Assembly (NCBI RefSeq): GCF_020520425.1
Contig: NC_079487.1
Location: 82,961,141 to 83,025,140, forward strand
Length of the DNA: 64,000 nt
From: Spinacia oleracea
Taxonomy: Eukaryota; Streptophyta; Magnoliopsida; Caryophyllales; Amaranthaceae
Reading direction: 5' to 3'
In this document: one piece after another, positions 3,352 through 63,806 of the stretch
Layout: every line of letters begins with the position of its first letter
How positions within the stretch are numbered: position 1 is the stretch's first letter
Translations under genes and position numbers: made by a program
The notes under the pieces: generated by a model
What the model saw: the letters and a program-made list of their open reading frames with translations, nothing else
Databases searched by the model: none
Told to the model about the DNA's origin: nothing

Positions 3352-3473
3352 TTTCATATTGGAAAATTTGTTAAAAATAATCCCACCTTTGGCCCGGTTT
3401 TCTTTAATTAATCCCACCTACAACATATTATTTATTAATCCCACCTTAAGTACCCATTGACTTTTATTGAACC
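3352..3473 (+). repeat. MULE-1 left TIR with target duplication
   Basis: Target duplication TTTCATATT at 3352-3360, then a TIR of 113 bp that differs from the inverted right TIR by one base of length (GGCCCGG against GGCCGG). Near identity of the TIRs suggests a fairly recent insertion. Confidence 0.9.
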
Positions 3474-3716
3474 TAGCAGGTCAAAAACCGGATTTATCCG
3501 GTAAAATGTCCTACGTGGCATATATCCGTTGCAAAATTAATAATTTTTTTTTTTGTTTATCTTTTTAACAGGTTTCTCTTTCTCTTTCCTTCTCATTTTT
3601 TCGCGCTCCTCTGGTTCATTTCTCCACCATTTTTGCATCTTCAAATTCTCTCCTCCACCATTTTTCTCAATTGTTCTGTAATTTTGGGATTTGGAAAAAA
3701 GAGTTCGCCCACTACA

Positions 3717-4451
3717 ATGGCTGGGTTAAACATATTTTCTGTGGGATCTGGTTCTTCATCAAATTCAAAGGGAGGAATTGTACCGTCGTTGATATGTGAG
3801 TGCGGAAATGTAGCTGTTGTGCGTACTGTTAAGCGCGGCCCTAATGTTGGAATGAAGTTTCATGGCTGTCCTTTATGGCCGGTAAGGTCTCTGAATCTCC
3901 TCAATTTTGTTTCCCCTAAAATTGACGAATTTAGGGTAGAGGGTGAGTAAGTCTATGAACTTTGCAATTAGGTGTAATTAGGGTAATTAAGGTACAATTT
4001 TTATAACGAATTTGGGTATAATTGATTTTTGTGGGGTGAATTTGTGTTTAATTGATTTGTTGTGGGTTTGATTGATTTGGGTTTTGTTGATAAAATTCTG
4101 ATGGTTTGGTCGATTATTTTGGTTGTTGTAATCGTATCGTAGGATACGAAGTGTGAATTTTTCAGGTGGATTCTTCCTGATAGCAATGCAGTTGACAACC
4201 TTCAAGTTCATGTTTTGGAAGCTAATACGACTATAGCTGAGATGGAGTATGAGAAAAAGTTGCTGGAGGAAAAGATAAGGAAATTGCAGATTAAAAAGGA
4301 AAATCTAGAGGAAGATGCACATGAAATGAAGAACGAACTTTGCGAAATGCGTATTGAGTTGATGAAGAGTTCAAGGAACGAAAGGAATTGTACAATGGCT
4401 CTGTATTTATCATGGGTGATTTTTGCCCTTGTTGTATTTTGGTTGAAGTAG
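3717..4451 (+). CDS. GRF-type zinc finger, coiled-coil, tail-anchored protein (MULE-1 accessory gene)
   Basis: Two exons, 3717-3881 and 4143-4451, give 157 residues. The intron starts GTAAGG and ends CGTAG; only this acceptor rebuilds the finger. Residues about 30-65 form a GRF zinc finger: CECG, a central Cys in HGCPLWP, then the split motif CEFFRW completed by exon 2. Residues about 75-130 are a charged coiled coil. The last 20 residues are a hydrophobic helix ending VVFWLK, a likely tail anchor. GRF fingers bind nucleic acid in several DNA-repair and RNA-related proteins. The role of this small membrane form is unknown to me. It starts about 240 bp inside the left TIR and converges on the transposase gene. 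A gene of the same plan sits at the same place in MULE-2. The reading frame is intact, unlike the transposase. Confidence 0.75.
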
Positions 4452-4539
4452 ATGACAATAAGTTGATATTTTCCCTTGTTGTATTTTGGTTGAAGTAGAT
4501 GACAATGTTACCATGAATAAAATTATCAAGGTTCGGTTG

Positions 4540-5130
4540 TTGACTTTAAAGTGTGAGTTATTTTGACACATTTGCGTAGTCGTACTTATATAACTAATTT
4601 TATGACAATTAGTTGACTTTAAACGAACGAGCAAGAGTTGACTTTTAACGAGCGAGCAAGAGTTGACTTGAAATGAACGAGCAAGAGTTGACTTGAAACG
4701 AACGAGCAAGAGTTGACTTGAAACGAACGAGAGTGGACTTGAAACGACAATGCTAATATCAAAGTTTGATAGGAGCATAAGATATGAAAAAATGTGCAAT
4801 TTCACTTTAGATGAACATAAGTGGATGTTAGTTGCACCAACATAGGTCCACTAAAATAATTTGCATAAATTGAAGATGATACTAGTGTAAGTTGTGAAAT
4901 ACGCATGAATTAAAGTCACAAATTTTCCATATCATGTTCTGAACTACACAAAAGATGGCATATGACTTGGTTGTTTGCAAAATCTGCTAACATGAAGGCC
5001 ACAGTTAACTACACAAAATACTACCACAGTTGACTTTTAACTACCCAAAAAAATCCCACAGTTGACTTTTAACTACCCCAAAAAGTCCCACAGTTGACTT
5101 TTAAGTAGGCAGAGTTGACTTATAAGTAGC
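4540..5130 (+). repeat. TTGACT-rich spacer between the convergent MULE-1 genes
   Basis: About ten copies of GTTGACT(T) occur here. At 4605-4740 they are in a tandem repeat of roughly 24 bp built on GAGCAAGAGTTGACTTGAAA. At 5020-5120 the unit is CCCACAGTTGACTTTTAA. TTGACC/T is the W-box core bound by WRKY factors. Whether they bind here is inference. Confidence 0.6.
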
Positions 5131-5427
5131 CATTGCTTGTTCTGAACTACACAAAAACATGAAATGACGCTACTGGAGTTGGCTTCTGGAGTTGCTTGCT
5201 GCTGCTACTGTAAGCTTGCTGCTGCTACTGTAAGCTTGGTTCAAGGATGCTACTGTGTTGGTTTATGTCCACTCGAGACTTGGCTCGACTGCGTTCCAAT
5301 ATTGCTTGTCGTCTGTGTCACCAAGTTTGACAACATCAGTAAGCATACATAACATGAAGTCCACTTGTGATTTCAACTACTACACAACATCAGTACTCAG
5401 TAATGCAACTATGTACAAGAGTTGTAC

Positions 5428-8400
5428 CTGTTTTTTAGGCCTCCCTCTCCCCCTGCTTGCACTTGTCATTGCAGTCCCGTCTGAAGCAACAAACATTCCA
5501 ACACCAACAGGAACCTATCATCAGAGGAGTCACACCAAACTTTCCACTAAAATTTATAAAACCAAAAAGCAAAACAATAGGATAGACTTACCTTATTTGG
5601 TATCCTCCCTCCACTATTTCCCCTTCCTCTTCCAGTTGTTCCACCTCGTCCGGTTGTTCCAATTGTTCCACCTCTTCCACCTCTTCCAGTTGTTCCACCT
5701 CTCCCACCTCTTGAACCCCTACCAGATAGAATCATCCTCCCACCTCTACCAAGTTGGCTCGGTTGACATGTAGAAGAGTGTTGTTGATTATTAGTCGATC
5801 GAGTGATTCGGGAAGAAGAAACTTGCGAGGTGGATACGTTTGGTGTAGGTGCTGCTACTGTAGAGGCAGCAGCAGTAGATGGAGCAGTGACAGACGGAGC
5901 ACGAGCGTGAGGGGGTTGACCATCATGTCTTGGTCTACCCCTAGGCCTTTTTGGGGCTGGTTCTGCAACACCAGTTGTGTCCCTGTTAGGACACCTTCGT
6001 TTGTTATGGCCTTTGACTTGACATATGCTGCAAGTCATTTCAATTCCAGTCCTTGACAGGTGACCAGGTTTCTTCGGGTTCTCAAAAGGGTCCTTCACCC
6101 TTTTTGTCCTTGGTCTGCCAGGCCCTATTTTGATGGGAGGGGGATCCAAGTGGTATTCCATCCTTGGCCAATACCTTTCTCCATCAATAGGAGGTATTGA
6201 ACCTGTACACATACACAAACACACAAACGGGAAGAATGTTACGCACACATAACTTTCAGAGCATACACCTACAATTACACACAATGAAACAAGGCATGTA
6301 CCTGCGTATGCAGTTAAGTATTCCTGTCTCCTGTAGCATTGATCAACAAACTCCTCGGCTTCTTTGTTTTGGAAAAAGATGCATGCAATGGCATGACAAC
6401 ATGGGATTCCTAGCATGTCCCACTTTCTGCATGTACATGTCCTTGCTTCCAAGTCCACCACCAACTGATCGAGATAGTAGTTCACATTGAACAACGTGTC
6501 TGTCGAGGGTATGACATCGCAGTTGGCAGCCTTGTCCTTCTCCTTTTCCAGCTTCTATTGGATTCTTGGGCATAGGATAGATGTGGACTTTTCCATTTGC
6601 TGTCTTTTCACCACCAACCTTTGCATCAAATTGTTTCTGATATCTTCTAACATGAAGATCAAATGTTTGGTTCTGGCTTGAATAATATAGCCGTTGAATG
6701 TTTCTGCTATGTTGGAGGTTATTGCATCGGTCTTCATTGATGTATCGAGGAAAGCTCCACAGAATACCTCTGGTCTGTACCCCTTAAAAGCAGTGGCAGC
6801 ATCCTCATTTAACTGAGTTAGTTCGTCCATGACATCATTATAGTCAGCAAGGTTGTAGGCTTTGGCAATCTTCCAGAACAGGAGCTTCATCTCATCACCT
6901 CTGTAAGACTTGTGCCAATGAGCAAAAATATGCCTTGCACAATGTCGATGCTCTGCTTTTGGTAGAACTAATGCCACTGCATTTAATATAGCCTTTGAAG
7001 CAACAAAAACAACCACATATTAGGATAATATTTACAGAATCAGGGATTCAAAACAGAAAACAACGCACCAGGTATTAAAAAAACAGAACACATGTTCAGA
7101 GATTCAACAATGCATCATGTATCCAGATTCGAGTCGGATACTTTGACACGTACCCGAGCCATATTACATGGTTCAAATCATGTGAACTTAGGTCAGTTAT
7201 GATCAACTAAAGAGAATTTAGGTCAAATGTAGTACTTAGGCCTAAATCTTGTGAACTTAGGTTAGTTATGATCAACATTAGTTGAATTTAGGTCAACTGT
7301 AGTTATCTCTGGTCAACTAGGTCAAACTTAGGTCAATTGAAGTCACATTACCTCAATTTGGGTCAAGTAAGGTTAAATTAGTCCTAATTACCTCATTTTG
7401 GTCCAACTTATGCCAATTTGGGTCAACTTAAGTCAATTGAAGTCACATTAGGCCAACTTGAGCACGATCGTTTCAATTTAGGTAATATTAGGCCATTTAA
7501 GTCAATCTAAGTCATATTAGGCCAATTTTGGTCAAAATACATCAAGTAAGGTCAATTTGGGTCAACTTGGGTCATTTAGGTAAACTAAGGTACATTTGGG
7601 TCAAAATATATCATTTTGGGTCAATTTAGGTCAACTTGGGTCATTTTGGGTCAATTTAGGTAAACTAAGGCCAATTTGGGTCAAAATATATCAAGTAAGG
7701 TCAATTTGGGTCAACTTGGGTCATTTTAGGTAAACTAAGGCCAATTTGGGTCAAAATATATCAAGTAAGGTCAATTTGGGTCAACTTGGGTCATTTTGGG
7801 TAAACTAAGGCCAATTTGGGTCAAAATATATCAAGTAAGGTCAATTTGGGTCAACTTGGGTCATTTTGGGTCAAACTATATCAAGTAAGGTCAATTTAGG
7901 TAAACTAAGGTAATATTAGGCCATTTAAGTCAATTTAAGTCACATTTGGCCAACATGAGCACGATCGTTTCAATTTAGGTAATATTAGGCCATTTGTTTC
8001 AATTTAGGTAATATTAAGTCATATTGGGTCAACTTAGGTCATGTTAGGCCAACTTGGGTTAGTATGAGTCAAAGTTAACATAAAATACACAACCTAGCTA
8101 CACACACATACAACAAACATATGTAAATACATACAACTTGTTAAGATGTAGAAAACAAACCTGATGCTCATCTGAAATGATGGCAATTCCCTCTCCTTCG
8201 CCAAGATCGAGGGACCTCTGAAGTAGGAGAAAAAACCACTGCCAAGACAAGTTATTCTCACCCTCTACTACTGCCCAAGCAATAGGGTACATCTGGTCAT
8301 TCCCATCCCTCCCTATAGCACTCATCAACTGCCCACCCAGGAAGGTTTTCAGGAAACAAGCATCGACAGCTATCACCTTCCTGCAACCCAACTTCCAACC

Positions 8401-8770
8401 CTTCTGCAATCCCTCAAAACAGGTATAAAACCTCTGGAAAACAGGAGGGAATGCCTGTTTACTGACATCAGTCACTACCTCCACCATGGTACCAGGGCTC
8501 TTACTTTTTAGTGCTTCCACATACCCCCCAACTTTCTTGTAATGCTCGTGCATCGACCCATGTAACAGCTTGTGCGCGGCATACTTCACCTTATATGCAA
8601 ACTCCTTTTTCACAACAATCTTGAATGCCCTTCTTATAGTCTCCATAATTTCACTAGCTGGCCAATGGGGTCTAGCCTTGAACACCTCGAGAAATTGTTT
8701 TGCCACCCAAGTCGTCTTCAACTGCCGATTTCTTTTCATATTTCTGTGACAGCTATGCTCACCATCTACC
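5428..8770 (-). pseudogene. MULE-1 MURA-like transposase, C-terminal part
   Basis: This is the downstream part of a MuDR-type DDE transposase. Exons on the minus strand are 8770-8161, 6992-6302, a third from about 6200 to 5592, and 5514-5428, with GT-AG introns; further 3' exons below 5428 were not resolved. The first holds the catalytic core: IAVDACFLK with the first Asp, and AIISDEHQ with the second. The next exon carries NIAETFNGY with the Glu and a SWIM zinc finger (CTCRKW ... CCHAI). The third has a CCHC knuckle (CSICQVKGHNKRRC) and Gly/Arg-rich repeats. A TAG at 6555-6557 interrupts the frame after CPRIQ, with homologous sequence continuing in the same frame. The N-terminal part lies at 19217-20616 beyond the copia insertion. 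The gene is dead in this copy. Confidence 0.85.
6993..8160 (-). repeat. transposase intron made of GGTCAA-based tandem repeats
   Basis: The intron (donor at 8160, acceptor at 6993) is almost entirely a degenerate repeat of about 10 bp, GGTCAAYTTG, between 7140 and 8070. In 7581-7910 it becomes a higher-order repeat whose marker TAAACTAAGG recurs at 7661, 7731 and 7801, a period of exactly 70 bp. On the transcribed strand the unit reads TTGACC, a W-box core. Confidence 0.8.
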
Positions 8771-10155
8771 TGTTAGGTTATGATACATATGACATTACAT
8801 AAATCATGCGGAAACAACCATTAACCCAGGACAACATATTATTTACACATAATCATATAGCATAATTTAGATGCATACTCTTTGTTGCGTGCCCTCCCTA
8901 GCTGCGCCCGAACCGAACAAGAACAAGTCTTTTAGGACTCCAAGTGTCGTCCCTCCGTAGATAGTCCACAGCACGTCCGGATCCGCCTTAAGATTGACCA
9001 ACTAGAATCGCCCTTAAGGTACTAGAAAATTTCGGCACTTTTGAGCAAGATGTGTGTTTGATTTTCTCTCAAAAAACTCACTTTTGAATACTTTGAAACT
9101 TGTGTATAAATTATGACCCCTAGGCCTTTATTTATAGAGTTATGGAAAAGGAATCGTAATCCTAGTAGGATGCGAATTAATTGGAATTAGAATCCTACAT
9201 GAATTCTATTTAATTAATTTATCCAATTAGGAATAGAAATTTAATCATACACTGACTCTTGTAGATTCAGGAATCACGCATGAGCACAAACTCACACACA
9301 CACGGCAGCCACAAGGGCTGCCCATGCGCGTGCGAGCAGCAGCCCGCGCAGCACGGCCCACGCAGCCGTGGCCTCTTGGCGCGCGCTGGGCCTGCCTTGC
9401 GGTAGGCCTGGGCGCTGCCTTGGCTGGGCTTGTGGCGCGCATGCTTGCTGGGCGATGGCCCCGGCTTCGTGCTGGGCCTTCGTCCGGCAAGCCTCGTCCG
9501 ATGCTAATTCGTACGATACGCTTCCGATTAAATTTCCATTTCCGGAATCTATTTCCGATACGAACAATATTTAATATTTCCGATTCCGGAATTAATTTCC
9601 GTTTCGAACAAATATTTAATATTTCCGTTTCCGGAATTATTTTTCGATTCCGGTAATATTTCCGATTCTGACAATATTTCCGTTTCCGGCAATATTTCCG
9701 ATTCTGGTAATATTTCCATTTCCAATAATATTTTCCGATACGTACCATGTTTCCGTTTCCGGCAACATCTACGACTTGGATAATATTCATATTTCCGACA
9801 CGATCCATATTTCCGTTTCCGGCAATATCATCGCTTCCGGAGTATTCATTTCTTGCCTGTGACGATCTTAGCTCCCACTGAAACCAAGATCCGTCGGTTC
9901 CGAATATTCATAGATGGAGTATTTAATGCCATTAAATACTTGATCCGTTTACGTACTATTTGTGTGACCCTACGGGTTCAGTCAAGAGTAAGCTGTGGAT
10001 TAATATCATTAATTCCACTTGAACTGAAGCGGCCTCTAGCTAGGCATTCAGCTCACTTGATCTCACTGAATTATTAACTTGTTAATTAATACTGAACCGC
10101 ATTTATTAGACTTAACATAGAATGCATACTTGGACCAAGGGCATTATTTCCTTCA
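8771..10155 (-). repeat. Copia-1 3' LTR
   Basis: 1385 bp, TG...CA ends. It contains a GC-rich block (about 9300-9500) and an array of short units built on ATTTCCGTTTCCGG (about 9520-9850). Its open frames duplicate those of the other LTR and are not genes. Confidence 0.95.
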
Positions 10156-10166
10156 GTCTCCCACTT
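10156..10166 (-). other. Copia-1 polypurine tract
   Basis: AAGTGGGAGAC on the minus strand directly adjoins the 3' LTR, the position used to prime plus-strand synthesis. Confidence 0.75.
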
Positions 10167-11019
10167 GTCCTTAGGGACAAGTGTGCATTTCCTAATTCCT
10201 TTGTCGCTCGATGCTTGCTCTTGAACATAAGGTAAGAGTTGTCATCCTTATTATGTCCAGAGGTGTTTCTCGGTTTCAGAGTTCAACTGATCAAATAAAC
10301 AGATAATCATAGCCTATGATTCATCCGAGCACGGCCATGCATTTCACAGTTTCTAGCTCTCCGAGTGGCCTTGTACAACTTTTAAGCATCTCATCCCGAT
10401 TTATGGGAGGACAATCCCAATCTTGCGATCTTGAGATTAGACTTCGTTTGATAGGTGATTACCTGAGCGTTGCCTTTATAGCCTCCTTTTACGGTGCGAC
10501 GGTTGGTCAACGTCAAAGCAACCAGTTCTCAAACAAGTAATCTCAAATCACTCAGGTATTGAGGATTTAGTGTCTAATAATTTAATGAAATTTACTTATG
10601 ACAGACTTTCATCTCTTACAGTAAAGTTTCATAGGTCTTGTCCGATACTAGTCTTCCCAAAGTAAGTATCTATGCAAATGATTATGACATTGCCATGTCC
10701 ACATAGTTCAAGAAACAGAACTACTAGTCATCTTGCATTCTAATCGTCTAACGTTTTCTATGCGTCCAATTTTATAGAAAACTCCGATTAGGGACCATTT
10801 TCAACCTTTGACATTCAAGTTCACTTGATAGACATTTCTTAGTCACAGGACTGGTCCTGACAGTCTATCTTGAATATATCGTCAAATTGAAGGGACTCAT
10901 CATTTAATAAACCACAAATTAAATGGAAAAATGAATTTCTTTCATTTATTGTGAATGATTAACCAATAATGTTTTACAAAGATTTAAACTCTAAAACTTT
11001 AAAACATTAAACAGAGACA
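10167..11019. other. Copia-1 region between gag-pol and the 3' LTR
   Basis: About 850 bp with no convincing coding. An open frame of 74 codons on the plus strand (10316-10540) has no recognisable domain. This is element sequence downstream of gag-pol. Confidence 0.6.
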
Positions 11020-14000
11020 TCAAAGCCATTCTCCAATATGCTTGATTCCCATAGCTGCAGTGTGCGAGTTGTGCTTCGCTTGCGGCAGAGGTTTAGTTAA
11101 TGGATCTGATATGTTGTCATCAGTTCCAATTTTGCTTATCTCGACTTCTTTTCTTTCAACGAACTCTCGTAGAAGGTGAAATCTACGAAGTACATGCTTG
11201 ACTCTCTGGTGGTGTCTAGGCTCTTTTGCCTGTGCAATAGCTCCGTTATTATCACAATACAGGGCTATTGGTCCTTTAATGGAGGGGACTACACCAAGTT
11301 CTCCTATGAACTTCCTTAGCCATATAGCTTCCTTTGCTGCTTCATGTGCAGCAATGTACTCCGCTTCAGTTGTAGAATCCGCAATGGTGCTTTGCTTAGC
11401 ACTTTTCCAGCTTACTGCTCCTCCGTTGAGGCAGAAGACAAACCCAGACTGTGATCTGAAATCATCTTTGTCGGTTTGGAAACTTGCGTCCGTATAGCCT
11501 TTAACAATTAATTCATCATCTCCACCATAGACCAGGAAGTCATCTTTGTGCCTTTTCAGGTACTTCAGAATGTTCTTGGCAGCAGTCCAATGCGCCTCTC
11601 CTGGGTCTGACTGGTATCTGCTCGTAGCACTGAGTGCGTACGCAACATCCGGGCGTGTACATATCATAGCATACATTATTGAACCAATCAATGATGCATA
11701 TGGAATCCCATTCATTCGTCTACGCTCATCAAGTGTTTTTGGGCACTGAGTCTTGCTTAGAGTCATTCCATGAGACATGGGTAGGTAGCCTCGCTTGGAG
11801 TCCGCCATCTTGAACCTATCAAGCACCTTATTGATATAAGTGCTTTGACTAAGTCCAATCATCTTTTTAGATCTATCTCTGTAAATCTTGATGCCCAATA
11901 TGTACTGTGCTTCTCCTAGATCCTTCATCGAAAAACATTTCCCAAGCCAAATCTTGACAGAGTTCAACATAGGAATGTCATTTCCGATAAGTAATATGTC
12001 GTCGACATATAATACTAGGAAAGCAATTTTGCTCCCACTGACCTTCTTGTATACACAAGATTCGTCTGCGTTCTTGATGAAACCAAAGTCACTGACTGCT
12101 TCATCAAAACGTATATTCCAGCTCCTGGATGCCTGCTTCAATCCGTAGATTGACTTCTTTAGCTTGCATACCTTTTTAGCATTCTTTGGATCCTCAAAAC
12201 CTTCAGGCTGTGTCATAAACACAGTTTCTGTTAAAACGCCGTTTAAGAAAGCAGTTTTGACATCCATCTGCCATATTTCGTAATCGTAATATGCAGCGAT
12301 TGCTAACATTATTCGAATAGACTTTAGCATTGCAACTGGTGAAAAGGTTTCATCGTAATCCACACCGTGGACTTGCCTGTAACCTTTTGCAACCAATCTA
12401 GCTTTGAAAACTTCAAGTTTCCCATCCTTGTCCTTTTTCAGTTTGAAAACCCATTTGCTTCCAATGGCTTGGTAGCCATCTGGCAAATCGACCAAATCCC
12501 ATACTTGGTTTTCAGACATGGAGTCTAATTCAGATTGCATGGCTTCTTGCCATTGCTTGGAGCTAGGGCTCGTCATAGCTTGCTTGTAAGTCGCAGGTTC
12601 ATCACTTTCAAGTAATAGAACGTCATAGCTCTCGTTCGTCAAAATACCTAAGTACCTCTCCGGTTGAGATCTATATCTTTGCGATCTACGCGGGGTAACA
12701 TTTCTAGATTGACCATGATTCTCACCAGATTCTTCTAAAGATCTCTGAGTTTCATCCTGAATGTCATCTTGAGCATTCTCTAGAGTTTGTTGTTCGACTC
12801 GAATTTCTTCGAGGTCTACTTTTCTCCCACTTGTCATTTTGGAAATGTGATCCTTCTCCAAAAAGACACCATCTCGAGCAACAAACACTTTGTTCTCAGA
12901 TGTATTGTAGAAGTAATACCCCTTTGTTTCCTTTGGATAGCCCACAAGGATACATTTGTCAGATTTTGGATGAAGTTTGTCTGAAATTAATCGTTTGACG
13001 TATACTTCACATCCCCAAATCTTAAGAAAAGACACATTTGGAGGTTTTCCAAACCATAATTCGTATGGAGTCTTTTCGACAGCTTTAGACGGAGCTCTAT
13101 TTATAGTGAGTGCAGCTGTATTTAGTGCATGTCCCCAAAATTCTAATGGAAGTTCGGCCTGACCCATCATTGACCTGACCATGTCTAGCAAGGTTCTGTT
13201 CCTCCGTTCTGACACACCGTTCCATTGTGGTGTTCCAGGAGGAGTCAATTCTGATAGAATTCCACATTCTTTCAGATGGTCATCAAATTCATAGCTCAGA
13301 TATTCACCGCCTCTATCAGACCGCAGTGCCTTAATCTTCTTGCCTAATTGATTCTCTACTTCACTCTGAAATTCCTTGAATTTGACAAAGGATTCAGACT
13401 TATGCTTCATTAGGTAGACATAACCATACCTACTGAAGTCATCAGTGAAAGTGATAAAGTAGCTGAAACCACCTCTAGCATTTGTACTCATTGGTCCACA
13501 TACATCTGTATGGATTAAACCCAATAGTTCATTTGCTCTTTCTCCAACTTTAGAGAAAGGTTGCTTTGTCATTTTGCCAAGTAAACATGATTCGCATTTA
13601 CCATAATCCTCTAAGTCAAATGGTTCTAGAATTCCTTCTCTTTGAAGTCTTTCTAAGCGTTTCAAGTTTATATGGCCTAATCGACAATGCCACAGATAGG
13701 TGAGATCTGAATCATCCTTTTTGGCCTTTTTGGTATTTATGTTATATACTTGTTTGTCGTGATCTAATAAATAAAGTCCATTGACTAATCTAGCAGATCC
13801 ATAAAACATCTCTTTAAAATAAAACGAACAACTATTGTCTTTTATTATAAAGGAAAATCCCTTAGCATCTAAGCAAGAAACTGAAATGATGTTTTTAGTA
13901 AGACTTGGAACATGGAAACATTCTTCCAGTTCCAAAACTAGCCCGGAGGGCAACGACAAATAGTAAGTTCCTACGGCTAATGCAGCAATCCGTGCTCCAT

Positions 14001-14985
14001 TTCCCACTCGTAGGTCGACTTCTCCCTTGCTTAACTTTCTACTTCTTCTTAGTCCCTGTGGATTGGAACATAAGTGTGAGCCACAACCAGTATCTAATAC
14101 CCAAGAAGTTGAATTAGCAAGTATACAGTCTATAACGAAAATACCTGAAGATGGAACGACTGTTCCGTTCTTCTGATCTTCCTTTAGCTTCAAGCAATCT
14201 CTCTTCCAATGCCCCTTCTTCTTGCAGTAGAAGCATTCGGATTCAGAAGTGGGTTGACTGACCTTCCTCTTTGCAGATTTGGCGCCAGTTTGCTTAGTTG
14301 GGCTGGCCTTGTTGCCACCTTTCTTAGCATTCCTCTTCTTTCCAGATTTCTTGAACTTGCCCCCACGCACCATAAGCACATCTTGCTTATTACTTTTGAG
14401 CGTCTTTTCAGCGGTCTTCAGCATACCGTGAAGCTCAGTGAGCGTTTTGTCCAGACTATTCATACTGTAGTTCAGTTTGAACTGATCATACCCGCTATGA
14501 AGAGAATGGAGGATGGTGTCTATAGCCATTTCCTGAGAAAATTGCTGATCCAGCCGACTCATATTCTCAATGAGTCCAATCATTTTGAGAACATGTGGAC
14601 TTACGGGCTCGCCTTTCTTAAGCTTGGTCTCAAGAATTTGCCTATGAGTCTCGAATCTTTCGACTCGAGCCAGATCTTGGAACATGTTCTTCAACTCACT
14701 GATGATTGTGAAAGCATCTGAGTTGATGAACGTTTTCTGCAGATCCGCACTCATGGTGGCGAGCATTAGACATTTCACATCCTTGTTGGCATCAATCCAA
14801 CGATTGAGGGCAGCCTGAGTGACCCCGTCGCCAGGAGCTTCGGGCATCGCCTCATCCAGGACATACTCCTTTTCTTCCTGCATAAGAACTATTTGCAAGT
14901 TCCTTTGCCAGTCAAGGAAGTTTTTCCCGTTCAACTTCTCCTTTTCGAGAATTGATCGAATGTTGAATGAATTGTTGTTTGCCAT
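11020..14985 (-). CDS. Copia-1 gag-pol polyprotein
   Basis: A single uninterrupted frame of 1321 residues, counted from the Met before ANNNSFNIRS (an upstream in-frame Met at 15078 is possible but starts in leader sequence). Order: Gag with copia-type gag domain, CCHC knuckle CFYCKKKGHWKRDC (near residue 250), aspartic protease with LDTGCGSH, pre-integrase HCRLGH, integrase with HTDVCGP, LRSDRGGEY and the Glu in GVSERRNR, reverse transcriptase with DVKTAFLNG and YVDDILL, and RNase H with YTDASF and STTEAEY. The integrase-before-RT order is diagnostic of Ty1/copia. All catalytic residues I can check are present, so the copy may be able to move. I cannot assign the lineage firmly. Confidence 0.95.
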   Translation of the reverse strand: MANNNSFNIRSILEKEKLNGKNFLDWQRNLQIVLMQEEKEYVLDEAMPEAPGDGVTQAALNRWIDANKDVKCLMLATMSADLQKTFINSDAFTIISELKNMFQDLARVERFETHRQILETKLKKGEPVSPHVLKMIGLIENMSRLDQQFSQEMAIDTILHSLHSGYDQFKLNYSMNSLDKTLTELHGMLKTAEKTLKSNKQDVLMVRGGKFKKSGKKRNAKKGGNKASPTKQTGAKSAKRKVSQPTSESECFYCKKKGHWKRDCLKLKEDQKNGTVVPSSGIFVIDCILANSTSWVLDTGCGSHLCSNPQGLRRSRKLSKGEVDLRVGNGARIAALAVGTYYLSLPSGLVLELEECFHVPSLTKNIISVSCLDAKGFSFIIKDNSCSFYFKEMFYGSARLVNGLYLLDHDKQVYNINTKKAKKDDSDLTYLWHCRLGHINLKRLERLQREGILEPFDLEDYGKCESCLLGKMTKQPFSKVGERANELLGLIHTDVCGPMSTNARGGFSYFITFTDDFSRYGYVYLMKHKSESFVKFKEFQSEVENQLGKKIKALRSDRGGEYLSYEFDDHLKECGILSELTPPGTPQWNGVSERRNRTLLDMVRSMMGQAELPLEFWGHALNTAALTINRAPSKAVEKTPYELWFGKPPNVSFLKIWGCEVYVKRLISDKLHPKSDKCILVGYPKETKGYYFYNTSENKVFVARDGVFLEKDHISKMTSGRKVDLEEIRVEQQTLENAQDDIQDETQRSLEESGENHGQSRNVTPRRSQRYRSQPERYLGILTNESYDVLLLESDEPATYKQAMTSPSSKQWQEAMQSELDSMSENQVWDLVDLPDGYQAIGSKWVFKLKKDKDGKLEVFKARLVAKGYRQVHGVDYDETFSPVAMLKSIRIMLAIAAYYDYEIWQMDVKTAFLNGVLTETVFMTQPEGFEDPKNAKKVCKLKKSIYGLKQASRSWNIRFDEAVSDFGFIKNADESCVYKKVSGSKIAFLVLYVDDILLIGNDIPMLNSVKIWLGKCFSMKDLGEAQYILGIKIYRDRSKKMIGLSQSTYINKVLDRFKMADSKRGYLPMSHGMTLSKTQCPKTLDERRRMNGIPYASLIGSIMYAMICTRPDVAYALSATSRYQSDPGEAHWTAAKNILKYLKRHKDDFLVYGGDDELIVKGYTDASFQTDKDDFRSQSGFVFCLNGGAVSWKSAKQSTIADSTTEAEYIAAHEAAKEAIWLRKFIGELGVVPSIKGPIALYCDNNGAIAQAKEPRHHQRVKHVLRRFHLLREFVERKEVEISKIGTDDNISDPLTKPLPQAKHNSHTAAMGIKHIGEWL

Positions 14986-16393
14986 ATTAAAAACTACAAT
15001 TGAAAAGAATAAACAAATAAATAACCATTCACAGTTTCTCTTAATAAACTTAAATTCTAGCATACATGCATAATTCAATGTTTATTAAGCATTTTATTCA
15101 AGTTATGTGTTCCGGCAGGTGTGAATAAAATGATTCCAAGATCCTAAAATCATTGAAGAACTAAGCACAGTTTGTCGACTTAATCCTAGAACATCTTAGG
15201 TAAGCAAAAGCCTTTTGCTAATAGTCTAGAAACTATTCTTGGTTGATAGGTACGTCTAAGAACTTATTAGGTAAACCTATCGAATTTGCCACGACATAAA
15301 AGGACTCCTTACTTATATCGTTGAGTTTCACCAAAACTAACATGTACTCACAATTATTTGTGTACCTTGCCCCTTTAGGACCAATAAGTAACACCTCGCT
15401 GAGCGAAAACTATTACTAGATTGATGTAAAGGATATCCAAGCAAGTGTATATTTTGGCATGGCACCTTTTAACTCAATTTTTAAGTTTGGAACTTAAGGC
15501 TCTTACTATGTTGGTTAGATTTTAAGTGAACTAAAATCCTTAATCATGCAACATAATCAAGCTTTTGATCTCATGCATTTTAAGACATATTTAAAGCAAT
15601 AAATAACTTAAAACATGCATAAGATATTTGTGATCTAGTATGGCCCGACTTCATCTTGAAGCTTTGACTTCAAAGTCCGTCTTGAAAATCTCCGTGGGAG
15701 GCACCATTTTCTTCAAATAGGATAAGCTATAACTAATTACAACTATTTGATGGTTCGCAGACCATATTTGAATTGAAAATTAACTTTGGTACTTTAGACC
15801 AATTACATTCAAATTAATGGTACGCAGACCATATTTTCTATCCTATTTGGGCCATACTAGTCACTTCATAACCTGCAAAACAGTACATATACAATATATA
15901 CCATTCACCCATTCATTATCATGAATGGCCCACATAGCTGGTTAGTTAAAACACATTATGCATCACGTAAACATTTGCAGCAATTAATCAAGGGCACCAA
16001 TAATCTACCAATTATTCAGTCCTTATTAATTCTAATCGAGTTGTTTTAACCTTAAGGATTTGTAGACCTAATCAAGAGTTTATGACTAAAAAGCGCTCCC
16101 ATTCAAACCAATAAATTCATATGCTTTACTAATTTTAAACATAAAATTGTATTTCTAGTCTAACCGGAAACATACAAATTTAATTAAAATTTAAAGCTCA
16201 TATAAATTTATAATTGAATCCAAAAAATTTAATTTAATTTCAGTCGTATTTAAATTAATTCATGATTTTAATTTTAGTAAAATAATTAGAATAAATTCCA
16301 TTTATTATAATTATAATATTCAAAATTAAAATCCAAGAAATTAATTCAAATTATTAATTTTAAAATTAATTAAAATTACGTGAACTGAAATTT
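14986..16393. other. Copia-1 leader, AT-rich part
   Basis: Non-coding leader between the GC-rich repeat and gag. No open frame of note. It contains repeated phrases about (GGTACGCAGACCATA), seen near 15745-15835. Confidence 0.5.
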
Positions 16394-16429
16394 TCAAATT
16401 AAACATTCAAAACGATCTAATCGTAACGC

Positions 16430-17010
16430 AAACACCCTACGCGTTGCACGCCCATGGGCCGTACGCACACAGCCATTGCTGGCCATGTGCGCGCAGCCCA
16501 TGCGCTCGTCGCATAGCTGCTGCTGTCCTATCGCAAGCCTCCGCACAGCGCCCCATCGCACGCGAGCTATCGCTCGCAGTGCGCGCGCGAGATCGCTCGC
16601 TGGGCGCGCTGGCTCGCTCGCTGTGCGCGCGAGCCATCGCTCGCTGGGGCGCGACATCGCTCGTTGGGCGAGCGACATCGCGCGCTGCGCGCGCGAGCCA
16701 TCGCTCGCTGGGGCGCGACATCGCTCGCTGGGCGAGCGACATCGCGCGCTGCGCGCGCGAGCAGTGCTGGGCGCAGCGCTCGTGGCACGCGAGCTTGCGC
16801 TCGCTGCGCGCGAGGCTGCGCGCACTTGTGCGAGGCAGCGCGCGTTGTGGCGCAGCTCGCTTGCTGCCCACACGCGACTGCCTTGGCTCGCCCTTCGCCC
16901 ATGCCCATTCGTTCATTGCTCGTGGCACACGACACAAGGCAGGGCTTCTGCCTTGTGCTCGTGCACTACGCCCTTGCTCATTGCATTCGTGCCGCACGGG
17001 CGACGAGCTC
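16430..17010. repeat. GC-rich internal repeat in the Copia-1 leader
   Basis: Strongly GC-rich and palindrome-rich (GCGCGC, GCGAGC, CGCTCG) between AT-rich flanks. A block of about 63 bp starting CATCGCTCGCTGGGGCGCG is repeated near 16636 and 16699. Long open frames exist in all frames here because stops are rare. They are low-complexity Ala/Arg/Ser and are not called as genes. Confidence 0.7.
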
Positions 17011-17817
17011 CCTTGCTCGTCGTCTCATGCCCGCATTATACAACACCCCTTAAGGGTAACACGAAGCGTCCATTGCTTCGTGCGTGCAAGTTAATTGAAC
17101 GAATCGCATAAAATTTTAAAATTTTATATTTAAAATTAATGACAAATTAATAAATCTTATTAATTTCATAATTTTAGGGCGAAAAAATCGAAAATTTATT
17201 ATCCAATTGATTTCCGATTGATATGGATTCAAGTCTAGGTCATAAAAATTTAAAATTTATCGTAAATTTACAATTTTTATGGTGGTTTTTAATCATAGGT
17301 TTCTAATTAAATTACAATTAATTATGAAAATCAAATTAATTCTAAATTATTCTAATTTTCAACAAATTAATCATAATTACAAATTAGATTGCATAATTAA
17401 CAAGACTAGGCATTCAAACTTGTTAAACATATGCAGTAGGTCAATCAAAAATTCAAGATTTATCAACAGGAATCGCAAATATTTAATTTAACATCTTAAA
17501 TTTACGAAATTTTGCATTCGAAAAACTAAAACCTTCGAAAAGTCATAGTTAGGCTTCGAATTTGAGAATTCTGGGTTCGGCAGAAAAACACTATTTTTGT
17601 CAAAATTTTAGAATGCCTTTTACATGCGGAATTGACACAAAAATCACTCAATTCGGATGAGTAATGAAGAAACTGCCGAAAAACTGCGTACATATAATTA
17701 AATAAACGCAATTTGCAATTAATTAACAATTACGAAAATTAATCACCCCTTTTAATTCTTGCAAATTTGTAATATTTAACCATGTTCATGCAATTTAGAT
17801 TATGAAAATAATAAGGG

Positions 17818-17830: not shown

Positions 17831-17831
17831 C

Positions 17832-56957: not shown

Positions 56958-56961
<4 letters not shown>

Positions 56962-57987: not shown

Positions 57988-58141
57988 GGTAAGAGGTGAG
58001 TAAACTGTACTGAAGGTCCCTAAACTTTGCCAAAAGGAGCAGTTAGGTCCCTCAAGTTTCAAAAGGAGCATTTAGGTCCCTCAAAATGGATGGAAAACGC
58101 TGTTTTTTGTTTTCCGTCACTAACGTAACGGCCGTTAAAAT
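57988..58141 (+). repeat. MULE-2 left TIR with target duplication
   Basis: Duplication GGTAAGAGGT at 57988-57997, then the TIR. The phrase TTAGGTCCCTCAA and its relatives occur three times in the TIR. Confidence 0.9.
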
Positions 58142-58387
58142 GAATATAATAATATAAAAAATTATTAAAATAAAAGGAGAATTAATATACACGTAGATTA
58201 ATGATTGAAAACAGATGATTTTGATGAAAATAAGTCTTTTCCAATTACTTAGCCTTTTCAACTTACTTTTTCAATGTGTACACGTGGAAACCTTCCAACT
58301 TCCCTCGTTTTTTCTGGTTCCTTCCTAATAATGTTTTGGCGGTATTTTTTTTACTGTTCCCAACCCTATTTCCCCCCTTTTCACTTC

Positions 58388-58398
58388 CTATTTATATG
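58388..58398 (+). promoter_or_regulatory. possible TATA box in MULE-2
   Basis: CCTATTTATAT about 105 bp before the short frame at 58493, followed by a pyrimidine-rich leader. Confidence 0.45.
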
Positions 58399-58492
58399 GT
58401 CCCCCCTCCCATTTTCACTCTCAGTTGTCTTTTTCCCATTTACTCAAACACTTAAGAGAATTTGAAGTTATTTCTCTGAGTTTTCTGCAAAA

Positions 58493-58582
58493 ATGGGTTC
58501 TTGCGTATCCAACAAGAGGACTGCTGATAAGTGGGAAGTTCGCACCCCCACGAGAACAAGAATTTGTCGGTTTTTTCAATAA
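58493..58582 (+). CDS. short frame MGSCVSNKR (possible first exon)
   Basis: 29 codons: MGSCVSNKRTADKWEVRT and a further 11, to TAA at 58580-58582. MGSCVS fits a dual N-myristoylation and palmitoylation start (Gly2, Cys4, Ser6). It follows a TATA-like box and a plausible leader. It could be the first exon of a gene continuing in the F-box-like frame at 59041-59379; a donor GTCGG at 58571 would allow this. The model is uncertain. Confidence 0.3.
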   Translation: MGSCVSNKRTADKWEVRTPTRTRICRFFQ

Positions 58583-59040
58583 ATGTTTGCAGTTGAGCCA
58601 TGATAAATTAGGGCTTTTTTGTTAAGTAACTTTTTCCCAAAATTGGTGCATGTATTATCTTGATTGTGGTGTTTTATATGTTAATTTAAACAATCGTGGG
58701 CTGATTTCGCATAATTTATCAATTGAAGTTGAAATTAGGGTTTCGTCCGTTTTTACTTTCCAATATTTAATTCGAATTGATGCTTGCATGTTCTTGAAAA
58801 TGGTGTTTAATATGTTAAATTATACAATTGTTGCCTAATTTGGAATTAATTTAAACTAGATTTTGTAGTAATTAGGGTTTCACTTACTGTTTTTGATTCA
58901 CTTAAACAAAAAACAGAGTTTGATTAATTCGAATGGATGCTTGCATGTTCTTGAAAATGGTGTTTATTTAAACTATTGTTTAATTTGGAAGTATTTTAAT
59001 CTAGATTCCGTATAATAATTAGGGTTTACTTACTGTTTTA

Positions 59041-59379
59041 TTGACTTTGGCCGTTACTTTGACTTTAGGAGACCTTGCTTTAAGGGAGGCACACCCCCTT
59101 TGTCATCATCAAGACATCCTCATCACCCAGATCTTCACCAAGCTGGACTGGGAGGGGCAGGCTGCTGTGCAGATGGTATGCAAGCAGTGGCGTAGGTGGG
59201 CCAAGTTGCGGTACCGCCTCCCATACCACTACCCTCAAGGATGCTACCGCGCGTGGCTGCGGGAGTGGGTGATCATGGACATCATTGACAATGATGGCCG
59301 TGACTTCCACGCCTGGATGGACAAGGACATGACCGTCTACTTTGACGGCTTCCCCCTCCTTTTCAAGGAGGAGGAGTAG
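59041..59379 (+). CDS. F-box-like frame inside MULE-2
   Basis: A frame of up to 112 codons, coding-like from about codon 10. The section DILITQIFTKLDWEGQAAVQ followed by MVCKQWRRWA resembles an F-box (the motif that binds SKP1 in SCF ubiquitin ligases). The rest, YHYPQGCYRAWLREWVIMDI and DFHAWMDKDMTVYFDGFP, is unknown to me. The stretch is clearly GC-richer than the surrounding MULE, a sign of captured host coding sequence. The start is not fixed: an acceptor-like CTTTAG (59063-59068) precedes the GDLALREAHPL part, so this may be a later exon. It lies between the left TIR and the transposase, on the same strand. Confidence 0.5.
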   Translation: MTLAVTLTLGDLALREAHPLCHHQDILITQIFTKLDWEGQAAVQMVCKQWRRWAKLRYRLPYHYPQGCYRAWLREWVIMDIIDNDGRDFHAWMDKDMTVYFDGFPLLFKEEE

Positions 59380-59820
59380 CTGGTGGTGGAGGCCATGCAG
59401 GGGTGGGTGGTGGTGGCGCTGGTGGTGGCCCCTCTTTTGTCAAGCTTATGATGATCCAGCTTGTTTATAGCTTTTTTTATTTTTAATTTTCAAGGACAAT
59501 TACATTACTACTGTCATTGCAATTATGTTTTTGTGAATGTGACAAATGTTGGTTTTTGGTATTTGTCACTGCTATGACAGTAGTTTATATCTAACCGTAG
59601 GCTTCTCCCTCAATAGTGGATTGAGGTTTGAAATGTAAGGGTTGAAGCCTACCCTTTTGTAAATGCAACTGAAATGATCATGATGAATGGATGAATGAAT
59701 GAATGCAACTTTAACCTTTTGTTATCTCTTGTGTTGTTATTCAAGATTTGGTTTGGTTTGATTTCTTAAAGTTTTTTTTTTTATTTGATATTGTTTTAAC
59801 TTTGATCAGATGTTGATGAT
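59380..59820. other. spacer before MULE-2 transposase
   Basis: 3' flank of the F-box-like frame and upstream sequence of the transposase. A GAATGGATGAATGAATGAAT run lies near 59684-59703. No gene. Confidence 0.5.
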
Positions 59821-62770
59821 TTGACTTTGAACCCTTGCATATATGTGCATCATGGTGGTGAATGGGTTGTGCAAGGTGATATGGTTTATAGTGGGGGGAG
59901 GGTGGATGTCTTTGATTACATCCATGAGAATGCAGATGGCAAATATGTTAAGGAATTAGTGGATAGTTTAGGTTATAATGATATAGAGAAAGTACATTTC
60001 TGGGACCCTAGGAAAGAATTCAAGAATGGGGTTAGATTTTTAGGTTTTGATAGTAGTACTTGTGACTCATTCTTAGCTTTACTCTTTGAATACAAAAGCA
60101 TTCATATATACATTGAACATAAAATCAAACCCACCTACAACTTTAACCTAAACAGGAGTGGAGGAGGGGGAGGAGGGAGAGGTAGCTTCCTTGAGTTGTT
60201 GAATACTGATGTGGTTGACTTAAATTCTGATTATGTGGAACCACCTTTTACAGTACTCCCACCCAAACAAACTGAACCTCAACCTGAACCTCAAAATCAA
60301 CCTCAAGATGTGCCCCAACCTGAAATTGATTATGATTCAGAGGGTACAGATGAGGATGATGATGAGTTAGCCACTGCTAGGTCTAAGATATCTGATGATA
60401 TGAGAAGGGAAAAGGCTTATTTTGAGGAGTTAGTAATGCTGAAAAAACTAGCAGAAAGTAAAGTAGAAGGTGGTCTGAATTTGGGGGATGACTTTGATGG
60501 ATACAGTGACTTAGACAGCCCTAGTGAGTCAGAAGATGAGGATGATGTTGGTTACTTAGTTGCACCACAACACCATAAGAGGGGGAGAGGGAAACAGAAG
60601 CAAAACAACACTGAAACTGAAGAGAGGGAAGCCACTTTCTATGTTGGGCAACAGTTTGAGAATCCAAAGACATTTAGGAAAGCAATCATAGATTATTCAA
60701 TTGATAAAGGAAGAAACATTCCATTTTCTAAAAATGATTCCACTAGGGTTTGTGCAGAGTGTGAGCACAAAGATAAAGGTTGTAAATGGAGAATTTGGGC
60801 TTCATGGGAGAGAGGAAGAAGGTCATTTACAGTGAAAACATTTGTCAGTGAGCAAACTTGTGGTAGGACACCTATCATTAAGAAGATGACTTCACATTGG
60901 ATTGCAGAACACTACCAGAATCTGTTTAAGGTTAACCCTTACATGAGAGTGCAAGATATTCAGGAAACCATTTGGTTAGAAAATGGTATAAGGGTGAGCA
61001 AAGACAAGGCTGCCAGGGCTAGGAGAAGGGGTCAAGCACTCATTGTTGGTGAATACAAAGAGCAGTATGCATTACTCCCAAGGTATGCAGCTGAGATACT
61101 AAGAAGCAATCCAGGGAACACAGTGAAGTTGAAGTTGGATGCAAATGTGTTTGACATACTGTATTTGTGTTTTGAGGCACTTAGGAAAGGGTTCTTGGCA
61201 GGATGAAGACCTTTCATATCACTTGATGGATGTTTCTTAAAGGGACCATTTGGGGGTCAATTGTTAGTAGCAGTAGGGAGGGATATAAAAAAATAAAATG
61301 TTCCCTTTGGCTTGGGCTGTCTGTGAGGTTGAGAGCACTGACACATGGAGTTGGTTTCTAGAACTTCTAGCTACTGATTTAGGCACTAGTGAAGGAGCAG
61401 GGTACACATTCATGTCTGACCAACAAAAGGGTTTACTTGCTGCTGTGTCAAATGTGTTTCCACAAGCTGAAAGTAGGGTGTGTACTGTAACTTTAGGGGA
61501 GTGTTTGGAGGTGGTTTAGAGTACAGAAAACAATTCTGGACTATTGCAAAAAGCAACACAGTAAATCACTTCAATGAAAACATTGAAGTAATGAGGGGTA
61601 TTTCACATGAAGCTGCTGAAGACCTACTGAAAAGGAACTACAAGAAATGGTGTAGGGCATTCTACACTCCATTATCTTGTTGTGACAGTGTAGACAACAA
61701 CATGAGTGAGGTGTTTAATGCATACATCTTGAGTGCAAGGCACAAGCCTATTATTACCATGTTGGAAGATATCAGAGAGGGTTTGATGGAAAGACTGCAT
61801 AAGAAAAGAGATTTCATTGGGAAAAAGGAGATAATGTTGTGTCCTAGGATCCAAATTCAGTTAAAGAAACACAAAATTTGGGCTAGGGGTTGGAATGCAT
61901 ACTGGGATGGTGGGTTTTGCTATGGAGTAAGAGAAGGTGCAACACACGTTAAGTATGTGGTGGATCTGAACCAACATACTTGCAGTTGCAATGCATGGCA
62001 GGTGAGTGGGATTCCATGCAAACATGCAATTGTTGCTATATGGAATAAAGTAGACCACCCAGAACAATATGTCAATGCATATTTCTGCAAACAGACCTAC
62101 ATGAAGGCATATGAATTTTTGTTAGAGCCTTTAAATGGTCCTCAAGAGTGGCCTACTTCTGATAACATTGTTGTGGCTCCAAAGGTGAAAAAGGTCAATG
62201 AAAGACCTAAAACAAAGAGGAGATATGGTGTTGGAGAGGTAACTGCATCTGGTAAGCTGAAGAGAACAGGTTGTTCTATGAAATACAGCTTATGTGGTGT
62301 GATAGGCCACAACAAAAGGTTGCAAGAATGCCCCTAAGCAACAACAACACAGCAACAATCATGCTATTGCAGAGCAGACCACACCACAGCAACAACACCC
62401 AAGAACCAGTTCAGCTATACCAATGCACAATAGGGGTGTGGGTATTTATACCTACCCAAATGGGTATCAAAGAATAGCTACTGTAAGTCATTCAATAGAC
62501 TCAAATTCTTTCTTACATGTTACTTTACTGTACTGAAGCCAACTTGTTCCTAATTTGTTTTAATTAATGCAGCCTATATCACAACATTTCCCCACACCAC
62601 AGAGGCAAAGACCTCCTGCAGCTTTCTATTCTGATCATGGGGGTGAGAAAACCATCTACTCCTTCCCTGCACATGACTTTCCATTGTCACAGACTCAACC
62701 AAGTCAAGGACACACAATATCAAGCCAAGCATTGCAGGATCTTGCAATGGCTAGAAGATTAGAAAAATGA
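59821..62770 (+). pseudogene. MULE-2 MURA-like transposase, broken
   Basis: It starts at MTLNPCIYVH. The N-terminal region (to about residue 110) is like that of MULE-1. An acidic linker follows, then the MuDR-type zinc-binding region (CAECEHKDKGCKWRIWASW). The catalytic Asp in SLDGCFLKG comes after a TGA (61204-61206). The frame shifts near 61290, at an A run in GRDIKK. The second Asp is in TFMSDQQKG. Another lesion lies near 61480, after AESRVC. The catalytic Glu is in NNMSEVFNAY, the SWIM finger is CSCNAW...CKHAI, and the terminal knuckle lacks its first Cys (MKYSLC). A last exon (62574-62770) after an intron (62483-62573) encodes a Gln-rich end (QALQDLAMARRLEK). The element cannot make its own transposase. 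Confidence 0.85.
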
Positions 62771-62861
62771 CCATGAGGTTAGATTTTATTGAATTTAAAG
62801 TCTTCATTACATTTCATTAGTGCAGATCATTACATTTACCTACCCACTTAACCCACTTAAC

Positions 62862-63284
62862 TTAAAACAAACCAGATAAAAAAAACAGAACCACTAGGAT
62901 TACAACCCACACTTCACATTTCACACTAATAGGTCTTCTCATCTTGCTCATCACATAGTCTGCCTCCCTCTTCCTTGCATAATTGTTAGCTTCACTAGGT
63001 TTTGTCCTAAAACTATCAACTTCAGCAGCAAGACTTTGTTTATCTTGCATTAACCCTAGTATGACAATTATTTGCCAAGTTGTTGGTTCTTGTTCATCAA
63101 TCCATCTAAAAAAGATGCAACCCCTTCTGTTTGTTTCAACATCATAATCTGGACAAACAATGAACCTCCTTCCAGGATTTTCTTTTGTCCATGCCTTTTG
63201 AATGGATACTGTGAATCCACAGTAGCACCTCTTAGGGTGTTCATTATCACCATTGTTGAACAAAGAGATAGCCCTGTTCATCAT
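62862..63284 (-). CDS. GRF-type zinc finger, tail-anchored protein (MULE-2 accessory gene)
   Basis: A frame of 140 residues. Residues about 17-63 form a GRF zinc finger: KRCYCG, the Cys in FIVCPDYD, and GCIFFRW. Residues about 65-115 are a mostly helical, charged stretch. The last 20 residues (EVWVVILVVLFFLSGLF) are a membrane anchor at the C-terminus. The start codon pair follows an intron-like acceptor TTTGCAG by one base, so a 5' UTR intron is likely. The gene reads inward from the right TIR and converges on the transposase. Same domain order and position as the gene at 3717-4451 in MULE-1. The reading frame is intact although the transposase has several lesions. Confidence 0.78.
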   Translation of the reverse strand: MMNRAISLFNNGDNEHPKRCYCGFTVSIQKAWTKENPGRRFIVCPDYDVETNRRGCIFFRWIDEQEPTTWQIIVILGLMQDKQSLAAEVDSFRTKPSEANNYARKREADYVMSKMRRPISVKCEVWVVILVVLFFLSGLF

Positions 63285-63657
63285 TCTGCAAATAAATTAC
63301 GTTTTAATAATTATTTCCTAAATATGTTTAATTATTGTTAAAATAAGCTAACTTAAGATTTTAAAAAAAATGGCAGAAAAATACCTTTTTGTTGAGAAGA
63401 GTCAGCTATGGTGGAGCAACAGAGAAAAAACACAGAGCAGAAGATGGAGAAGAAAGTTTTTTTTTTAAAGTGTTTTATTGTTGTTTTGTTGGCCATGGAA
63501 TGTTAAATACTCTGTTTTTTTAGAGCCACAACGGCTATATTTTTGTAAAAAGCTAACTGAAATGAATTTCCCTTTATTTAATTATTGGTAAATGGTAAAT
63601 GTAACTGTTTTTTTGTCGTTTAGTGCCTTTTATTTAGTTTCCTTTTAATTTAATTGA
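63285..63657 (-). promoter_or_regulatory. upstream region of the MULE-2 GRF gene
   Basis: A leader intron probably lies from 63285 to about 63380, and the promoter beyond. No certain TATA box. No coding. Confidence 0.35.
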
Positions 63658-63806
63658 ATTTTAACGGCCGTTAGTGACGGAAAACAAAAAGCAGCGTTTT
63701 CCATCCATTTTGAGGGACCTAAATTCTCCTTTTGAGACTTGAGGGACCTAACTGCTCCTTTTGACAAAGTTTAGGGACCTCCAGACCTATTTACTCGGTA
63801 AGAGGT
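63658..63806 (-). repeat. MULE-2 right TIR with target duplication
   Basis: Inverted copy of the left TIR with scattered mismatches, then GGTAAGAGGT at 63797-63806. The TIRs are more diverged from each other than those of MULE-1, suggesting an older insertion. Confidence 0.9.

Follow-up and report, generated by a model that had tools for sequence, protein, structure and literature searches.

A 64,000-nucleotide stretch of the spinach (Spinacia oleracea) genome (contig NC_079487.1, positions 82,961,141 to 83,025,140 of the forward strand; below, the window) contains two Mutator-like elements (MULEs), MULE-1 and MULE-2. Beside a transposase gene, each carries a small gene for a protein with a GRF zinc finger. 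We conclude, with a probability of roughly 0.95, that a clade of plant MULEs has long carried this GRF gene as a second gene of its own, maintained by selection. The initial annotation of the window, made from the letters alone, had proposed that a lineage of MULEs conserves a second gene. The proposal is borne out by the pairing of the two genes, their convergent orientation, eight complete elements that enclose both, and ratios of nonsynonymous to synonymous substitution (dN/dS) well below 1 for the GRF gene in informative pairs. With clearly less assurance, we lean towards a fuller explanation in which the product of this old second gene would act as a membrane-tethered helper of transposition that binds single-stranded DNA.

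Two elements with one kind of second gene

The two elements and their parts are as follows; TIR denotes a terminal inverted repeat.

3361..21311, no strand: whole of MULE-1, including a nested Copia element (TIR pair and exact 9-bp duplication)
3361..3473, + strand: MULE-1 TIR on the GRF side (99% identity to 21200-21311)
3717..3881, + strand: GRF-1 exon 1, covering the N-terminus and the larger part of the finger (open frame, Pfam PF06839)
4143..4451, + strand: GRF-1 exon 2, remaining finger, long helix and hydrophobic C-terminus (open frame, Pfam, hydropathy, model of the relative P0003)
5550..8769, - strand: 3' part of the MULE-1 transposase, in pieces, frame broken (open frames and Pfam)
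19176..20646, - strand: 5' part of the MULE-1 transposase, pieces 20200-20646 and 19176-19982, frame broken (open frames, Pfam)
21200..21311, - strand: MULE-1 TIR on the transposase-start side (repeat pairing with 3361-3473)
57998..63796, no strand: whole of MULE-2 (TIR pair and exact 10-bp duplication)
57998..58141, + strand: MULE-2 TIR on the transposase-start side (repeat pairing, 90% identity)
59806..62334, + strand: MULE-2 transposase, two main pieces, broken in between (open frames, Pfam)
62862..63284, - strand: GRF-2 coding sequence, 140 aa, finger, helix and hydrophobic C-terminus (open frame, Pfam, model, hydropathy)
63286..63384, - strand: probable 5'-leader intron of GRF-2 (GT...AG in the sequence)
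63658..63796, - strand: MULE-2 TIR on the GRF side (repeat pairing with 57998-58141, 90% identity)

MULE-1 is flanked by the exact 9-bp duplication TTTCATATT (3352-3360 and 21312-21320), and MULE-2 by the exact 10-bp duplication GGTAAGAGGT (57988-57997 and 63797-63806). Their TIRs, 112-144 bp long, have no obvious common sequence, in line with the unlike TIRs initially described. Long TIRs, duplications within the 8-11 bp expected of MULEs and pieces of a MURA-type transposase identify both as Mutator-like elements. Coordinates and Pfam also agree with the placement of the GRF gene, in both elements, by the TIR at the far end from the transposase start, convergent to the transposase. The gene span first given for GRF-2 was right, but the one for GRF-1, 3717-4451, contains an intron. 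GRF-1 comprises two exons with a 157-aa product, and its splice junction, read from the sequence, is matched by the relatives P0003 and P0004. The end of GRF-2 (62862-62900) lies within a T run whose length varies among copies (P0001, P0002); this variation shifts the frame of the last residues, with hydrophobicity mostly retained.

GRF is the only family above its Pfam cut-off in both proteins (PF06839: 47.0 bits for GRF-1 and 28.6 bits for GRF-2, cut-off 25.9). The succession of finger, helix and hydrophobic end that had been read in both is supported by this match, by structure models and by C-terminal hydropathy. One residue follows the best 17-residue hydrophobic segment in GRF-1 and none in GRF-2. 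The model of GRF-2 predicts a GRF sheet followed by a long helix and then by a separate C-terminal helix (mean predicted local distance difference test score, pLDDT, 77), and that of P0003, a close GRF-1 relative, a single long helix from finger to C-terminus (pLDDT 87). In hhalign, the profile of the MULE-1 type matches that of the MULE-2 and third-family type along 131 columns, which extend from the finger into the tail (probability 98.2, E 6e-14, 20% identity), values that helix and tail composition may inflate.

A profile search placed 93 relatives at E ≤0.001 among 908 candidates. They are mainly from Amaranthaceae, with one or a few in each of Saponaria, Gypsophila, Euphorbia, Castilleja, Tagetes and Helianthus. 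Several carry topoisomerase or endonuclease names, presumably derived from the finger alone. Tails were scored in 60 of the 97 retrieved proteins, those of 135-190 aa, and 54 of the 60 have a hydrophobic C-terminal tail, a count in which retrieval by whole-protein search favours the full-length architecture. The measure is one of hydropathy only: a 17-residue value of at least 1.6, with no more than 15 residues between the segment and the C-terminus. The six others are P0018, P0027, P0044, P0047, P0048 and P0088, in the last of which the segment lies 21 residues before the end.

The top Foldseek matches of the finger are the GRF fingers of NEIL3 and APE2, at probabilities of 0.97-1.00 and weak E-values of 0.004-0.16; by sequence, E-values are 3e-20 for NEIL3, 9e-7 for APE2 and 9e-4 for ZCCHC4. 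These three host proteins share the finger, but no enzyme domain was found in the MULE proteins, which have the long helix and hydrophobic C-terminus instead, and, unlike the host genes, the MULE GRF gene is carried by a transposon.

Pairing with transposases across the spinach genome

We searched the 894-Mb spinach genome that holds the window. The Pfam GRF search gave 148 matches (best 150 of 485 candidates scored). GRF protein searches covered the best 150 of 380 and the best 150 of 371 candidates, and the GRF-1 search gave 172 matches (best 150 of 305 scored). Transposase protein searches gave 138 matches (best 136 of 1115 scored) and 126 matches (best 123 of 1347 scored). From these, 122 of 138 and 118 of 126 transposase matches were compiled by hand, with 117 of 150 and 147 of 150 GRF matches and 106 of the listed GRF-1 matches; second pieces or exons of one copy were left out, as were, from the 380-candidate GRF list, most matches below 45% identity.

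Among the matches listed, which amount to 370 GRF and 240 transposase positions, 183 GRF positions lie within 4.5 kb of a transposase, and all 183 neighbours are convergent. At 4.5-20 kb there are nine convergent neighbours and one that is not. For a position control we used two GRF lists after removing two hits that lie on small contigs. Of the 262 listed GRF hits on the six large contigs, 174 are paired, compared with a mean of 0.68 (maximum 5) under random placement and 1.03 (maximum 6) under shifts of 50-500 kb. This rules out chance adjacency. Many of the paired hits belong to the same families, as copies that are not independent.

In the MULE-2 family, a transposase lies within 3 kb of 82 of the 92 listed GRF copies (at least 80% identity), and 86 of the 94 listed transposases have a GRF partner. 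The initial annotation had asked how often GRF genes lie close to a transposase within a TIR pair; most MULE-2-type copies do lie within 3 kb, and TIR-enclosed cases with 9- or 10-bp duplications exist. At looser similarity, GRF genes accompany 59 of the 89 listed transposases with 40-60% identity to that of the third family, and 8 of the 16 with 30-60% identity to that of MULE-2. The 7 of 106 MULE-1-type GRF hits that are paired mark a gap rather than evidence of absence, since the transposase lists did not come from a MULE-1-type query.

We fetched 28 GRF loci, 20 from the Pfam list (mostly its top 20) and 8 from the GRF lists for breadth. A convergent MULE transposase is present at 16 (L011, L017-L022, L024, L026-L030, L034-L036). 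Six host-like GRF genes (L009, L010, L013-L016) show neither a transposase match nor a repeat pair around the finger; L016 appears APE2-like by eye. The remaining six (L012, L023, L025, L031-L033) are GRF-helix relatives or remnants with no convergent transposase in the stretch, among them L023, counted as unpaired, where a transposase fragment lies ~7.5 kb away on the same strand as the GRF gene.

At eight of the 28 loci (L018-L022, L026, L028, L029) a complete TIR pair of 113-195 bp repeats encloses both genes and is flanked by exact 9- or 10-bp duplications, those of L019 and L028 being near-homopolymeric and hence weaker. A transposase is present in all eight. These elements represent four families. 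The termini read GAGTAAA in the MULE-2 family, whereas those of the remaining three read GGAAA, like those of MULE-1. The distance from the GRF ATG to the element end is 0.36-0.62 kb in MULE-1, MULE-2, L019, L022, L028 and L029.

Selection, shared history and exchange

The GRF gene has dN/dS values of 0.11 (L030-L034), 0.18 (L034-L035) and 0.16 (L034-L032), three pairs with at least 39 synonymous changes and unsaturated dS. The C piece of the transposase gives 0.13 and 0.18 in L030-L034 and L034-L035, the two pairs having it. The comparison of the two genes suggested at the outset thus finds GRF values as low as those of the transposase. By region, in L030-L034, L034-L035 and MULE-1-L019, dN/dS is 0.06-0.13 for the finger, 0.13-0.20 for the middle and 0.22-0.33 for the tail, the tail being individually significant in one of the three pairs only. 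Pairs with few changes gave 0.65 (MULE-2 and L022, 11 changes) and 0.18 (L026 and L028, 5 changes). Values for the L019 transposase piece, which is partly out of frame, were left out; in comparisons of the third family with L029-L035, dS is saturated. Neither outcome that the initial annotation had set against its own proposal, mainly free-standing GRF genes or dN/dS near 1 across element copies, was found.

Distances between GRF genes follow those between transposases (Mantel r=0.87, p=0.0005, for 8 elements; r=0.93 for 12), across types whose transposases (MULE-1, MULE-2 and third family) are 27-37% identical. There are exceptions. Between MULE-1 (3361-5250) and L036 (672-2555) the first 1.75 kb, with TIR and GRF gene, are 97-100% identical and the sequence beyond 60-88%, near-identical GRF arms on diverged transposase arms that we read as the product of recombination or conversion. 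At L017 (1459-3543) the GRF gene is closest to that of MULE-2 (48%) and the transposase to that of the third family (44%), an apparent partner swap. Synonymous divergence is also unequal between the two genes in L027-L028 and L030-L035. Invariable co-inheritance is ruled out by these four cases. From the congruent distances together with MULE-1/L036 and L017, we therefore conclude that the two genes mostly travelled jointly, with exchange of arms.

These data bear on the possibility that the GRF gene is a functionless passenger, a host gene caught by chance as in Pack-MULEs. Gene capture by MULEs is documented (PMC13317346), spinach does have host-like GRF genes (the 6 of 28 fetched loci), and some MULE lineages lack the gene. 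However, a captured fragment would not be expected in the identical place and orientation across families with such diverged transposases, nor with long-term dN/dS below 0.2 in the informative pairs and distances congruent with those of the transposase. Pack-MULEs, moreover, are recognized by a lost transposase and host fragments, whereas here the transposase is kept. The helix and tail were not seen in the six host-like loci, within the finger exon's frame, the only frame read. We consider a passenger very improbable; a recent capture is ruled out by selection, congruent distances and spread over several families.

Several observations weigh, as does the exchange of arms, against the explanation of the GRF gene as an old second gene with a helper role. 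Ten of the 12 listed transposases that are 60-80% identical to that of MULE-2 have no compiled GRF gene within 4.5 kb, and no transposase lies within 3 kb of 10 of the 92 listed MULE-2-type GRF copies. We inspected five stretches behind transposases apparently without a GRF gene. Three of them (L037, L038, L040) hold none within 3.5 kb. At L037, an open transposase frame of 927 aa, 63% identical to that of MULE-2, is followed by no GRF gene within 3.5 kb downstream, so this element is a natural control on the need for one. In L039 a Copia-like insertion is present and the gene was not found, and L041 does contain an intron-split GRF gene. In addition, GRF dN/dS is 1.0 in L030-L032, where L032, with no transposase nearby, may be a dying copy. 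For the tail alone dN/dS is 1.0 in L029-L034, and hydrophobicity at the C-terminus does not by itself make a membrane anchor. Because L037, L038 and L040 lack it, the GRF gene is common but not universal, and a universal second gene of all MULEs is ruled out. Its absence would most simply reflect loss.

Could the GRF protein instead be a brake, sequestering transposase or element ends at a membrane and so limiting copy number? In the MULE-2 family, listed GRF copies have 4 stops in 10,805 codons (80 copies) and listed transposases 24 in 19,021 (68 pieces); GRF frames outlast transposase frames (Fisher p=0.017, with copies not independent). The 10 of 92 GRF copies without a nearby transposase would also fit. 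Yet GRF-less copies are similarly frequent (8 of 94 listed transposases), and on general grounds an element should be only weakly selected to keep a brake on itself. We regard a brake as quite unlikely.

As initially noted, both transposases in the window are broken while both GRF frames are open, but this is not general: 48 of the 68 full-length MULE-2-like transposase pieces (at least 92% identity) have no stop, and broken transposases are therefore not the rule. Longer open relatives of both transposases occur elsewhere in the spinach genome. In MULE-1 the 3' pieces comprise a DDE/MULE domain (8101-8769), 6558-7019, and a SWIM domain (5550-6554). The match to the DNA-binding domain (DBD) is slightly under the Pfam cut-off (23.6 against 25 bits). 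The gene is interrupted by a frame change and by the following element.

8770..19216, - strand: Copia element nested in the MULE-1 transposase (identical 1386-bp long terminal repeats, LTRs; 5-bp duplication CTACC)

From its identical LTRs, we read this insertion as very recent. The MULE-2 transposase has DBD_Tnp_Mut in the first piece (59806-61203) and SWIM in the second (61477-62334), with one stop and frame changes. Pfam found no MULE domain in these broken pieces, and a 919-aa open relative in L022 carries DBD, MULE and SWIM. Elsewhere in the window, a second Copia element (51584-56770) has 317-bp LTRs that are 99.7% identical and a 1494-aa open frame, and two overlapping open frames at 21874-23507 look by eye like a mariner-like transposase.

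Possible roles and relation to known second genes

What might an old second gene of this kind do? By analogy, a helper role in transposition is the function we somewhat favour. The GRF gene would be expressed from the TIR promoter and its product would act in trans. Cut ends and strand-transfer junctions give rise to single-stranded and forked DNA, and the finger would grip single-stranded or branched DNA at such cut or joined ends, while the helix would join the molecules in pairs. The tail would fix the complex in the membrane of the endoplasmic reticulum (ER) and nuclear envelope, which are continuous with each other, so that the cut element would be inserted, or the donor site recovered, more readily. 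For NEIL3 and APE2, the GRF finger is reported to bind single-stranded or forked DNA (PMC9266487, PMC8593216).

The membrane step is the more tentative part. Tethering is suggested by models and hydropathy, and we hold it possible but on balance doubtful. The strongest version, in which a flowering-plant MULE class would possess its own tail-anchored cofactor for single-stranded DNA, bringing intermediates to the nuclear envelope or ER and steering insertion there, we think unlikely. Alternatively, the C-terminal helix may serve in packing, in transposase binding or as a degradation signal in a soluble DNA-binding partner. The unbroken helix to the C-terminus in the MULE-1-type model and the greater freedom of tail residues than of finger residues to change are consistent with this, whereas the tail hydropathy of 54 of the 60 relatives and the separate helix predicted in GRF-2 argue otherwise. 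We would expect a soluble partner only in a minority of outcomes.

An anti-silencing factor is a further candidate. Like VANC of VANDAL elements, the GRF protein could counter methylation or RNA-directed silencing rather than aid catalysis, and VANC provides an earlier example of a second MULE gene under selection (PMC6446971, PMC13317346). A membrane tail would suit a chromatin factor poorly unless it acts at the nuclear envelope. VANC is not known to have a GRF finger or a membrane-like tail. This role seems to us quite improbable, and the helper of transposition remains the reading we carry forward.

The closest positional counterpart is mudrB of maize MuDR, a convergent second gene at the other TIR whose product, MURB, is reportedly required for insertion (PMC9168764, PMC6446971). 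The GRF gene, too, lies by the TIR that is far from the transposase start and points towards the transposase, a correspondence of analogy, not homology. In barley Abermu and other grass MULEs, an ORFR lies antisense between transposase and 3' TIR, with Ka/Ks of 0.39-0.56; ORFRs of distant plants are described as mutually dissimilar, with no domain named (PMC9168764). Antisense position and purifying selection are shared with the GRF gene, which differs in being a single recognizable family across several MULE families. Other extra genes carried by MULEs include vanB and vanC (VANDAL/Hiun), KIU (Ulp1), PMD (often antisense) and MutB (PMC6446971 Table 1; PMC13317346), which we set apart from the GRF gene via Pfam and descriptions only. 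The term GRF occurs nowhere in the main text of PMC9168764, PMC6446971 or PMC13317346. A limited literature search found no paper naming a GRF second gene of MULEs, so novelty in print is not established. Second genes of MULEs are known; with that reservation, the GRF-finger version is new, none of those described in the papers cited being a GRF protein.

The roles of second genes in MULEs (mudrB, ORFR, vanB) are largely open. The GRF gene is recognizable by its domain, common to families with transposases of only about 30-50% identity and under selection, which makes its own role directly testable. There is also a practical side, in that such GRF genes are annotated as host genes. A candidate from a genome-wide association study of spinach vitamin C, SOV5g022430, is a zf-GRF gene (PMC11844115), and the GRF-1 protein search places a GRF-1-like exon, 53% identical, at its position (G000:C5:41335683-41335979); it may be one such case. 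A membrane anchor on a protein of a DNA transposon would be unexpected. If the membrane cofactor is real, cut-and-paste transposition would include a membrane-coupled step, and many plant GRF-type annotations would be transposon genes.

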